A DNA stretch of 64,000 nt, from the NCBI GenBank assembly GCA_949296575.1, contig CASFPE010000027.1, positions 1 through 64,000 on the forward strand, written 5' to 3'. Positions 15,916 through 64,000 of this stretch are shown piece by piece (the stretch's first letter is position 1; each line of letters opens with the position of its first letter). The stretch is from an uncultured Bacteroides sp. Lineage in GTDB: Bacteria; Bacteroidota; Bacteroidia; Bacteroidales; Bacteroidaceae. A program made the position numbers and the translations under genes. The notes beneath the pieces were generated by a model. It did no database searches. It was given only the letters and a program-made list of their open reading frames with translations, and was not told the origin of the DNA.

Positions 15916-16079
15916 CCTGCACGATTAATAATCTTCTGCCGTGACGATTAATAATCGTACACGTGTACGATTATTAATCGTGCAGGAAAAAGTTCAGGAA
16001 GATTTCGCAAAAGTTCTTAGAACAATTTCAAAAACCTTCTAAACATTCTCCTCAAACATTGGAATGATTTGCCCAAACC
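15916..16079. repeat. palindromic two-state repeat element with ~22-bp phased units
   Basis: A perfect 38-base palindrome spans 15944-15981. The left arm sequence also occurs once more outside, at 15916-15933, and is complementary over 18 bases to 15969-15986, so two mutually exclusive stems are possible. The three arm cores (GATTAATAATC or its complement) begin at 15923, 15946 and 15969, exactly 23 bases apart. Rightward follow degenerate units of 21-24 bases marked by CAAA at 16008, 16029, 16053 and 16074. An inverted copy lies at 41928-42075. No gene is present between 15782 and 16326. Confidence 0.75.
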
Positions 16080-41927: not shown

Positions 41928-42075
41928 CATTGAAACATTTGAGGCAAAGCATAGAAACATTTTCCAGAAAATTCAAAAAGATTGCCGGACTTCATCATGA
42001 ACCTTTCCATGCACGATTAATAATCGTACACGTGTACGATTATTAATCGTCACGGCGGAAGATTATTAATCGTGC
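41928..42075. repeat. palindromic two-state repeat element, inverted copy
   Basis: Carries the same perfect 38-base palindrome as 15944-15981, here at 42013-42050, plus a third arm: 42011-42025 is complementary to 42061-42075. Arm cores begin at 42015, 42038 and 42061, exactly 23 bases apart. To the left are four 22-base degenerate units starting at 41928, 41950, 41972 and 41994, the first two sharing CAtnGAAACATTT. The orientation is opposite to the copy at 15916. The gap 41896-42317 has no other gene, only this element and the transketolase promoter. Confidence 0.75.
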
Positions 42076-51409: not shown

Positions 51410-51883
51410 ATGGCTGACAATTTACCTTGCAACATCATAGAGCAGGTGCAGACCATCTGCGACAAGCACGGGAACAACCCCGGCGAACTCATCAACATCC
51501 TCCACGAGGCACAGCACCTCATGGGATACCTCCCGGAGGAGATGCAGCGCGTCATCGCGCGGAAGCTCAACATACCGGTGTCGAAGGTCTACGGCGTGGT
51601 CACCTTCTACACCTTCTTCACCATGACCCCCAAGGGGAAATACCCCATCTCCGTGTGCATGGGGACGGCCTGCTACGTGCGCGGCTCCGAGAAGCTGCTG
51701 GAGGAGTTCAAGCGGCTGCTCGGCATCGAGGTGGGCGAGACGACCCCCGACGGGAAGTTCTCCCTCGACTGCCTGCGCTGCGTGGGCGCCTGCGGCCTGG
51801 CCCCCGTGGTGATGATCGGCGAGAAGGTGTACGGCCGCCTCCAGCCCATCGACGTGAAGAAGATACTCGACGAGTTCGAGTAA
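51410..51883 (+). CDS. hydC: [FeFe] hydrogenase NuoE-like subunit
   Basis: A 157-residue subunit of the NuoE/24-kDa type with one [2Fe-2S] cluster: CMGTACYVRG near 83 and LDCLRCVGACGLAPVV near 122. Helical N-terminus with ILHEAQHLMGYLPEEMQ. It completes the HydBAC trimer. An operon order of B-A-C with gaps of 12 and 14 bases suggests stoichiometric expression. A terminator follows. Confidence 0.95.
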   Translation: MADNLPCNIIEQVQTICDKHGNNPGELINILHEAQHLMGYLPEEMQRVIARKLNIPVSKVYGVVTFYTFFTMTPKGKYPISVCMGTACYVRGSEKLLEEFKRLLGIEVGETTPDGKFSLDCLRCVGACGLAPVVMIGEKVYGRLQPIDVKKILDEFE

Positions 51884-51913
51884 GCCCCGCGCAGTAACAT
51901 ATTTACACATCGC

Positions 51914-51960
51914 AGCCCGCACGGCCTTCCCGGAAAGGAGCCATGCGGGCTTCCGTTTTT
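51914..51960 (+). terminator. terminator after hydC
   Basis: AGCCCGCA at 51914-51921 pairs with TGCGGGCT at 51944-51951, with further pairing inside, and is followed by TTCCGTTTTT. Confidence 0.8.
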
Positions 51961-52049
51961 CCCGGCGGCAGCCCCGCCATTGCCCCGCAAGGAACATCCC
52001 CCCGCCCCGCAAAACATGCCCCACAGCCCCGTGTGGAGGGGGTGAAACC

Positions 52050-52325
52050 ATGAAGCGCAACAGCCACCCTCCATGAAGCGCAACAGCACCCCTTGCTGAA
52101 GCGCAACAGCAGCCCCCCATGGTGCGCGTCATGAAGGGTTCACCTTGCGCGTCATGGCAGTGCCATGGTGCGCGTCATCACCAGCTCGCCTTGCGCGTCA
52201 TCCGCCCGCCGCCTCGCGCATGGTAAACAGCCCTTACAGCGCGGCATACGGGGGCCGCCCCGCGCATCACGAAGGCAGCAGGGTGCGCGCCATCCGGGCA
52301 GCACCGTGCGCACCGCCGACGGCAC
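52050..52325. repeat. 12-unit, exactly 23-bp phased GCGC array
   Basis: GCGC occurs at 52055, 52078, 52101, 52124, 52147, 52170, 52193, 52216, 52239, 52262, 52285 and 52308, each exactly 23 bases after the last. Units 1-3 share (A/C)TGAA-GCGC-AACAG; units 4-7 share GCGC-GTCAT, close to the reverse complement of the first type; units 8-12 keep little beyond GCGC. The 9-base spacer half of each unit varies freely. GC-rich degenerate units may continue left to about 51981. It fills the gap between the hydC terminator and the copA promoter and contains no credible gene. Confidence 0.85.
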
Positions 52326-52423
52326 AGGCCGCCACACCTATTTATATATATGCACGCAAAGGCAACGACGGAAATCTATAAAGATTATCCATCATTCTAT
52401 AAGGCGCGGACGGGGCATTTCCC

Positions 52424-52431
52424 TATCTTTG
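52424..52431 (+). promoter_or_regulatory. -7 box for copA-fur
   Basis: TATCTTTG, 18 bases before the ATG at 52450; no clear -33 box. Confidence 0.6.
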
Positions 52432-52449: not shown

Positions 52450-54948
52450 ATGGAAGCAAAGGATAAAACGAAAGCCACCTTCCCCGTCACAGGCATGAGC
52501 TGCGCCGCCTGCGCGGCACGGGTGGGCAAAGCCCTCGGCAAGCAGCCGGGGGTGGAGGAAGCCAGCGTGAACTACGCCACGGCACAGGCCACCGTCACCT
52601 ACGACCCGTGCCGGTGCAGCCCCGCCGCCTTGGAGGCCGCCGTGCGCGAGGCCGGGTACGGGCTGCTGGTGCAACAGGGCAAGGAAGCGGAGCAGGCCGC
52701 CGCCCGGCAGCGAGGGCGGAGCTACCGGCAACTGCGCCGCCAGACCATTGCCGCCATCGCCCTGGCCGCGCCCGTGGCCGTATTAGGCATGGCTTTCATG
52801 GACACGGCATGGGCGGGATACGTGTCGTGGGCCTTGGCCACCGCCGTGGTGTTCGGCTGCGGGCGGAGGTTCTACGCCAACGCCTTCCGCCAGCTGCGCC
52901 ACGGCAGCTCCAACATGGACACCCTCGTGGCCGCCAGCACGGGCATCGCCTACCTGTTCAGCACGGCCAACCTGCTTTTCCCGGAGTTCTGGCTGAAGAA
53001 AGGCATAGAGCCGCACGCCTATTTCGAGTCGGCCAGCGTCATCATCGCCTTCATCCTCCTGGGAAGGCTCTTGGAAGAACGCGCCAAGCAGAAGACTTCC
53101 GACGCCATCCGCGCACTGGCCGGGCTGCAACCGTCCACCGTCACCCTCGCCGCCCCGCAGGGCGAACGCACCGTCCCCGTGGAGGAAGCGCGCCCCGGCG
53201 ACCTCGTCGTCGTGCGGCCCGGCGAACGCATCGGCATGGACGGCACGGTGGAAGAAGGGCAGTCATACGTAGACGAAAGCATGCTCACCGGCGAGCCTGT
53301 CCCCGTGGCCAAGCAGCCGGGCGAGCCCGTCTATGCCGGCACCATCAACCAGCGGGGCAGCTTCCGCTTCCGCGCCACCAAGCCCAGCGCAGGCACCCTC
53401 TTGTCGCAAATCATCCGCATGGTGCAGGACGCGCAAGGGTCGAAAGCCCCCGTGCAGCAACTGGCGGACAAGGTGGCCGCCGTCTTCGTGCCGGCCATCA
53501 TCGGCATCGCCGCGCTGTCGTTCGTCCTGTGGGTGGCGCTCGCCCCTGCGGACGGGTTCACCCACGGCCTGCTCGCCATGGTCACCGTCCTCATCATCGC
53601 CTGCCCCTGCGCCCTTGGGCTGGCCACCCCCACCGCCCTCATCGTGGGCATCGGCAAAGGAGCGCGCGAAGGTATCCTTGTGAAAGACGCCGCCACCCTG
53701 GAGGTGGCGCGCAAGATAGACACCCTCCTGCTCGACAAGACCGGCACCCTCACCGAAGGCCGCCCCGCCGTGGACGGCACGGCATGGGCCGCCCCTTCAG
53801 AGGAGATGCGCGACATCCTGCACAGCCTTGAGAAGCTGTCGGAACACCCCTTGGCGGAGGCCGTCGTGCAATCCCTGCCCCATGCCCGCACGCTCCCCGT
53901 GGAGCAGTTCGAAAGCATCCCCGGCAAGGGCGTGAAAGGGCGCGTCAACGGGCAAGGCTATTACGCCGGCAACGCCGCCCTGCTCCAACAGCACGGCATT
54001 GCCATCCCGAAGAAGCTGGAAGACGATGCCGGACGCTGGGCCGCAGAGGCCAAGACCGTCATCTGGTTCGCCAACGCACGGGAAGCACTGGCCGCCATCG
54101 CCGTCACCGACCGGATAAAGCCCACCTCCCGCCAGGCCGTCCGCCTCCTGGAGGGCATGGGCATCACCGTCCACATGATCACCGGCGACCATCCCCGCGC
54201 CGCCCAGGCCGCCGCCCGGCAGGCAGGCATCACCCATTTCCAGGCCGGGATGCTGCCGCAGGACAAGGCCGCCTTCGTCAAGCAACTGCAAGCCCAAGGC
54301 CACCGCGTGGGCATGGCAGGCGACGGCATCAACGACAGCGCCGCCCTCGCCCAGGCCGACCTCAGCATCGCCATGGGAAAAGGCAGCGACATCGCCATCC
54401 ACGCCTCCATGGCGACCATCCTCTCGTCCGACCTCATGAAGATACCCGCCATGGTGCGCCTCTCGCAACTCACCGTCCGAACCATCCGCCAGAACCTGTT
54501 CTGGGCATTCATATACAACCTGGCAGGAGTGCCCATCGCCGCCGGGGCATTGTACCCCCTGTGCGGCTTCCTCCTCAACCCGATGATAGGCGGGGCCGCC
54601 ATGGCCTTCAGCAGCGTCAGCGTAGTGGCCAACAGCCTCCGCCTGCGCGGAAAACGGCTGAACGCCCCGGCCACAGGCGTCCCGGCAACCACGCCGCCCG
54701 CGCCCGAAGAAGAAAACCAACCAACAGGCAACATCATGAAGAAAGAACTCAACGTAGAAGGAATGATGTGCAACCACTGCCGCAAGCACGTGGAAGACGC
54801 ACTCAACAGCATCGAAGGCATCCGTGCCACCGTCACATTGGAACCGCCCGTCGCCGTCGTGGAATACAGCGGGAAAGAACCCTCCTTGGACGAACTCCAG
54901 CAAGCAGTGTCCGGCAAGGCGGGCGACTACAAACTGTCCGCACGATGA
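52450..54948 (+). CDS. copA: copper-type P1B ATPase with N- and C-terminal metal-binding domains
   Basis: An 832-residue heavy-metal exporting ATPase in the inner membrane. N-terminal HMA domain with [11 protein letters not shown] (residues about 16-26), membrane segments from about 100, phosphatase TGEP, transmembrane metal site [10 protein letters not shown] near 385, phosphorylation motif DKTGTLTEG near 430, and hinge [14 protein letters not shown] indicates Cu(I) or Ag(I). A second, complete HMA domain ([13 protein letters not shown]) follows a Pro-rich linker at about 763-832 and starts with an internal ATG (54736), so it may also be made alone as a chaperone. ATG 52450 is chosen; an earlier start would read through the 23-bp array. 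Confidence 0.93.
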
Positions 54949-63914: not shown

Positions 63915-64000
63915 AGGCAGCGGCCAGTAGTCAGTAGATAGTAGTCAGTAGTTAGAATACAGAAGCCAAGAAGGATGGCCGGGCCGCGAAACCTTGCGGC
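63915..64000. other. post-hydF intergenic start, short TAGTCAGTAG repeats
   Basis: No gene starts here. AGTAGTCAGTAG-like phrases recur three times at about 63925-63954. No terminator was seen within the window. Confidence 0.5.

Follow-up and report, generated by a model that had tools for sequence, protein, structure and literature searches.

A genus-restricted intergenic element carries phased 23-bp arrays whose repeat sequence differs between sister species

In the window analysed here, a stretch of 64,000 nucleotides from an uncultured Bacteroides sp., the array that lies between the genes 'hydC' and copA forms the repeat block of a single copy of a non-coding intergenic element that is dispersed in the genome and restricted to its genus. 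The element is a BrickBuilt-like modular repeat, probably kept for its phased dyad symmetry at gene boundaries, by means of protein docking or hairpins. The 23-bp rhythm persists in a sister species even at sites where another repeat sequence has taken over, an indication that spacing and symmetry may matter more than the letters themselves. That this modular element evolves in concert and that selection sees its 23-bp lattice of dyads, as docking sites or as hairpins, is the reading we favour, at slightly better than an even chance.

The array of the window consists of twelve GCGC (52055, 52078 and so on to 52308; span 52055-52311) spaced by exactly 23 bp. The locus is organized as follows.

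51410..51883, plus strand: upstream gene 'hydC', a NuoE/HoxE-like [2Fe-2S] thioredoxin-fold subunit (Pfam PF01257, E 2.7e-52; NCBIfam HoxE/NuoE models), whose 3' end faces the leader of the window copy
51894..51909, plus strand: leader start motif GTAACATATTTACACA, consensus GTAAtagATTgnnACA (alignment of 25 leaders)
51937..51963, plus strand: intrinsic-terminator-like stem and T run inside the leader of the window copy (terminator scan)
52007..52046, unstranded: conserved hairpin block AAAACATGCCCCACA..TGTGGAGGGGGTG, kept in 25 aligned copies
52007..52238, unstranded: module common to non-orthologous sites, 91% identical to contig C7 71118-71349, the identity being confined to these positions and the flanks unrelated
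52055..52215, unstranded: array of seven 23-bp units, each made of GCGC, a half-site, a variable spacer of ~7 bp and a half-site
52216..52238, unstranded: tail unit GCGCATGGTAAACAGCCCTTACA
52239..52311, unstranded: four extra in-phase units past the tail (GCGC at 52239, 52262, 52285 and 52308)
52424..52431, plus strand: TATCTTTG, a candidate −7 box read from the sequence
52450..54948, plus strand: downstream gene CopA, a copper-translocating P-type ATPase (Pfam E1-E2_ATPase, HMA and Hydrolase; TIGR01511 above cut-off)

The consensus of the Bacteroidota −7 box is TAnnTTTG; TATCTTTG matches it, and the array thus presumably lies upstream of the likely copA promoter. The start and tail motifs of the element, compared by eye with the same consensus, did not fit it as promoters. 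No Rfam 15 family scored over its gathering score anywhere in the window.

The first-pass annotation had taken the regular spacing to be non-random, and this was borne out. Among the 387 GCGC of the window the longest equally spaced run (periods 8 to 80) was 12, compared with 3 once the array had been removed; the run never exceeded 3 in 40 dinucleotide-shuffled versions of the window, or 4 when the local 440 bp were shuffled 1000 times. A chance origin, or tandem duplication of the ordinary kind followed by drift, might account for the fact that non-core positions average only 40% identity between units, but it is refuted by the shuffles and by the constraint on the core columns described below; the homologous arrays present at many other sites also speak against it, and its probability is practically nil. 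The part that is invariant within the window array amounts to 4 bp. Most other positions indeed differ between units, as had been stated, except that columns 7 (C in 11/12), 8 (A in 10/12) and 18 (C in 11/12) are nearly fixed as well. What had been described as units flipping orientation is better understood as a few alternative half-sites placed to the left or to the right of the GCGC dyad centre (AACAGC, GTCATG and ATGGTA; CATGAT, GCTGAA and CACCTT).

About 15 copies of the element are present in the genome of the window and 10 in that of the sister species; both are draft assemblies of 84-85% completeness, probably metagenome bins, and ~400 kb of stretches were sampled from each. It was absent from the 397 other genomes of the family (399 searched, including the two of the genus), and the hairpin block, at up to 3 mismatches, occurred in 2/399 genomes, both of this genus. 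A unique local feature is ruled out by the many copies elsewhere in the genome: with the stretch 52000-52400, eight further copies and shorter fragments were recovered from the same genome. The proposed search for GCGC(N19)GCGC was positive in the genome itself, where four GCGC at 23 bp matched 58 times and the reversed control 5 times, but it revealed no excess in the 397 others: five in phase were found in 4/397 genomes outside the genus, in unrelated sequences, against 6/397 for the reversed control. A 23-bp spacing of GCGC is therefore rejected as a signal common to the Bacteroidaceae. In other genera of the family, genomes G367, G326, G298 and G151 (L141, L149, L140 and L138) do contain 23-bp arrays built on a GCGC core but unrelated in sequence, that of G326 being made of GAGGTGCGCACCTC dyads.

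Each copy comprises a variable leader, the conserved hairpin, usually seven 23-bp units and a fixed tail unit (GCGCATGGTAAACAGyCCTTACA). Copies were set in phase on the common hairpin block (AAAACATGCCCCACAggccctTGTGGAGGGGGTG), followed by the units and by the tail unit GCGCATGGTAAACAGTCCTTACA; the unit centres are spaced by exactly 23 bp, in phase with the hairpin. The leader start motif is located ~130-160 bp ahead of the hairpin in most copies of the 25-leader alignment. Irrespective of the array type, about half of the copies, including that of the window, have an offset of 199 (seven units) between hairpin and tail motif; in most of the remaining ones it is 176 or 130, which are whole-unit steps. 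Between type A paralogs identity reached 89% in the hairpin and 87% in the array, compared with 69% in the leader and 70% downstream (shuffled baseline, 68%). The flanks of these dispersed copies are unrelated, and the flanking genes examined all lie outside the element, which means that the copies are intergenic. A weak match to the hairpin block occurs beyond the end of the window (C27:64138), and a CAGTAGT-type microsatellite, present at 63925-63955 of the window, is also found just upstream of the leaders of C11a, C11b, C34a and C25.

Copies with the same hairpin bear different units on one 23-bp phase, and the following types were distinguished.

Type A: GCGC with mixed half-sites (window copy)
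Type B: unit ACCATGCGCATGGT
Type C: unit ACCCATGCATGGGT
Type D: unit ACCACAATTGTGGT
Type E: GTAC-N5-GTAC

On the same lattice, the cores of other copies are TGCA/TGCG or AATT-like. The consensus units of types B, C and D contain perfect 7-bp arms, that is 14-bp dyads (P 0.0004-0.0016). The type A dyad is imperfect: its junction palindrome is not significant, and the two positions beside GCGC pair less often than random pairing predicts. Types B-D are palindromes without a loop, and the E/F arrays have loops of 5 nt. The C25 array is mixed, with a first repeat of type C and the rest of type D. When whole units were treated as circular, palindromicity was not significant in most copies because the spacer is not symmetrical, and a permutation test did not separate a junction palindrome from an intra-unit hairpin. 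We also rejected a chain of 9-codon mini-ORFs, each sharing ATGA with the next (27-4=23), since it suits only part of the type A units and breaks down in types B-D.

We then compared homologous units. In the nine type A copies of the window genome, 1/32 core columns was polymorphic versus 56/152 of the others (Fisher, 4e-5), and the non-core box columns were less polymorphic than the spacer columns (2e-5); paralogous units are related and not independent, and these P values are thus optimistic. When homologous units of sister copies are compared, columns 1-3 and 7-9 are invariant and the spacer (11-17) is not; in this comparison the constrained block is larger than GCGC alone. The sister species has two type A copies, in which core and non-core changes per site were about equal (3/20 versus 12/95 and 2/24 versus 17/114) and the core showed no clear constraint, meaning that the constraint on GCGC is not general. 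Selection on an invariant core, as suggested at first, thus agrees with the paralogs of the window genome, but not with the broken GCGC of the sister species or with the other cores found elsewhere.

Nine pairs of orthologous sites, with upstream flanks of 79-92% identity, could be compared between the two species; both flanks were shown to be orthologous at C27, C7, C34b and C30b, and the upstream flank only at the other five. The array type differs at 7/9 of these sites.

C27/g1C5 (window locus) and C7/g1C3: type A in both species, with whole-unit losses and substitutions
C11a, C11b and C34a: type A in this genome, type C in the sister
C35: type A in this genome, type B in the sister
C34b: type A in this genome, type D in the sister
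C25: type D in this genome, type C in the sister
C30b: type C in this genome, type B in the sister

The clearest swap is C30b/g1C25, where leader and downstream regions are homologous and the array is replaced between hairpin and tail. Hairpin, tail and phase are kept at the swapped sites, and often the number of units as well. At the window locus the sister's array has lost whole 23-bp units and undergone substitutions, with GCGC broken in several units, no other clear indel and the phase intact; the strict 23-bp phase, for which a comparison with relatives had been proposed, thus survives it. Orthologous sites examined for an empty state were occupied, rearranged or held another array, and no clean empty site was seen. 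Copies within a species are more alike than copies at the same site across species, which amounts to concerted evolution. Both assemblies being drafts, mis-joined repeats could mimic some of the swaps.

A dedicated system that exchanges array cassettes at fixed chromosomal sites, with hairpin and tail as borders, would explain the type differences at 7/9 sites as well as the conservation of hairpin, tail, phase and, often, unit number. These observations come from two draft genomes, however; mixed arrays such as that of C25 fit gradual homogenisation, and ordinary recombination suffices, so that we hold such a system to be very unlikely. The dedicated diversifying process initially envisaged is weakly suggested by the same 7/9 differences, which gene conversion or unequal recombination could also explain.

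The 3' side of ispF carries, in both species, 23-bp arrays with a GTAC-N5-GTAC stem (L251:8640-8880 here; L236:690-980 in the sister). The fifth stem pair is G-C in 9/9 units here and C-G in 8/8 units of the sister, and the C14 site displays the same flip (G-C here, one unit excepted, versus C-G). The flip is a compensatory change common to the units of an array and to two sites. Arrays of this kind at C14 and ispF are leaderless, except C14 in the window genome. In the sister a single array lies between ispF and a prephenate-dehydrogenase-like gene (L236); here the two genes are on separate contigs (C29 and C18), each adjacent to an array (L251 and L025), so that a rearrangement may have had its breakpoint at arrays.

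Most copies have their leader side turned towards the 3' end of a gene. Downstream of the elements, besides copA, there are often genes of the BspA-type LRR kind (C20, C11a, C34a and C30a) or of the HU family (an HU-HIG gene at C11b and a second match adjoining C25). Arrays fold better than shuffled sequences in nearly all copies (mean z of about -4.2 on one strand and -2.8 on the other), with a greater advantage on the strand of the upstream gene in 16/20 copies; leaders are mostly no better folded than shuffles (z about -0.5). An element acting as RNA, whose read-through or dedicated transcripts would fold into a row of hairpins and terminate transcription or protect the upstream mRNA at its 3' end, as BIME/REP clusters do, is consistent with this orientation and this strand bias. 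It is also consistent with the 5-nt loops of the E/F arrays and with the hairpin block, which on the minus strand forms a terminator-like stem (52038-52019) followed by CATGTTTT (terminator scan). In intra-unit pairing A-C mismatches are depleted and G-T mismatches are not, a slight indication that the pairing takes place in RNA from the same strand as the upstream gene. Against it, types B-D are palindromic without a loop, and the plus-strand RNA of the window copy reaches a z of only -0.85; this copy has a terminator-like stem before its array and the likely copA promoter after it, and transcription of the array is therefore hypothetical. We thus find a role as RNA doubtful. The window copy is also among the least symmetrical, and its low symmetry (the z of -0.85, with a type A junction palindrome that is not significant) counts against the selection on dyads that we favour.

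How the element relates to known systems was considered next. REP/BIME of enterobacteria are extragenic palindromic clusters, located mostly at gene 3' ends and evolving in concert; the present units are likewise palindromic and extragenic (14-bp perfect dyads in B-D, imperfect in type A), whereas REP units are longer, are joined by linkers within BIMEs and do not follow a strict 23-bp lattice. Iterons are direct repeats about two helical turns apart, found at replication origins beside a rep gene and sharing one recognised sequence; the element is similar in its phased direct repeats and differs in its many chromosomal copies of several types. CRISPR arrays combine near-identical repeats longer than ~20 bp with unique spacers and cas genes, and their constant and variable parts alternate at a constant period, as they do here. 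The present unit is however 23 bp long with a constant part of 4-16 bp, and a CRISPR array is ruled out by the 4-bp invariant part within the array and by spacers that are homologous between copies.

The statement that no such Bacteroidota element had been described overlooked BrickBuilt of Porphyromonas gingivalis, which consists of a leader, tandem 23-nt repeats without spacers and a tail, in 19 copies that are always intergenic (PMC4596501). Whole BrickBuilt units are gained or lost between strains, stem-loops are predicted, terminator-like sites lie nearby and one copy adjoins an HU-family gene, PF00216 (PMC4596501). The present element shares the 23-nt tandem unit, the dispersed intergenic copies (~15 and 10) and, for two copies, the proximity of HU-family genes; hairpin block and tail unit flank the repeats in most of the 25 copies, the upstream leader being poorly conserved (69% in type A paralogs). 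It differs in its units, since the 40% average identity at non-core positions of the window compares with 0-11% mismatches within a BrickBuilt element (PMC4596501), and in that one lattice is occupied by several array types, which are swapped at orthologous sites; neither feature is described for BrickBuilt. The IS5-type terminal repeat of BrickBuilt, GAGACCTTTGCA (PMC4596501), was matched in the vicinity of the copies with 2-5 mismatches at best, no better than in shuffled sequence. The element thus resembles BrickBuilt and is not filed as a member, because the BrickBuilt terminal repeat is absent and the likeness is one of described architecture.

That architecture was termed MITE-like by its authors (PMC4596501), and a selfish or neutral repeat has to be weighed: a MITE-like element that trapped a 23-bp minisatellite, was copied around, was made uniform by gene conversion and does nothing for the host. 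The dispersed intergenic copies with common end blocks, the BrickBuilt-like architecture and the whole-unit changes in array length agree with it, and slippage and unequal exchange working in whole units would account for the phase. Neither the column-specific constraint on the boxes nor a dyad symmetry that outlasts sequence replacement is expected of neutral repeats; moreover no BrickBuilt-like terminal inverted repeats were found, and sites are common to both species with no clean empty one. Such an origin is possible, if on the improbable side.

In the reading that we favour, of a modular element whose dyad lattice is seen by selection, arrays would spread to other existing sites as the stretch between the common hairpin and tail recombines or is converted, and their length would change in whole units through unequal exchange. 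Selection would then see the regular row of dyads, one per ~2.2 helical turns, which is the least certain step. The dyads would most likely be docked by a dimeric DNA-binding protein or else act as hairpins, and they would act at gene boundaries, between a 3' end and the promoter that follows it. The presence of several array types per genome fits poorly with one sequence-specific protein and speaks rather for a structural role, or for no role at all.

A period scan (13-60, blind to palindromes) was run on Bacteroidales only, namely 464 kb of the window genome, 400 kb of the sister and 1.44 Mb of other Bacteroidales. Arrays at 21-23 bp made up 12/13 in the window genome and 14/16 in the sister; in the other Bacteroidales 22 bp was the commonest period, with 15/37 matches, four of which are runs of N. 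Some of the arrays sit in open frames and may be coding. The arrays of these other Bacteroidales (L041, L042, L046, L047, L099 and other loci) are degenerate and unrelated in sequence, and several are strongly palindromic. A second dispersed family, made of ACGATTAATAATCGT palindromes exactly 23 bp apart and usually three in number, was observed at 15921-15981 and 42013-42073 of the window and in roughly 40 places of its genome (75 matches, both strands counted); its counterpart in the sister is formed by ACGATTACTAATCGT arrays, likewise at 23 bp. Our literature search found no description of a general class of 21-23-bp arrays.

A wider reading, which we regard as unlikely, is that 23-bp phase and dyad symmetry are themselves selected at fixed intergenic sites while the repeat sequence in its entirety is swapped or converted in each species. 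The driver would be either a trans-acting factor that recognises one dyad per 23 bp or a dedicated exchange of cassettes. If this were true, the 21-23-bp phased, often palindromic intergenic arrays of Bacteroidales, unrelated in sequence, would form one unrecognised class. Independently of this wider reading, the element links BrickBuilt, an isolated curiosity of P. gingivalis, to a broader pattern in which Bacteroidales intergenic repeats are phased at about two helical turns and their symmetry can outlive their sequence. A functional lattice would point to a novel nucleoid-associated protein or boundary system; a non-functional one would make the element a clear example, in bacteria, of concerted evolution of the satellite kind at orthologous sites.
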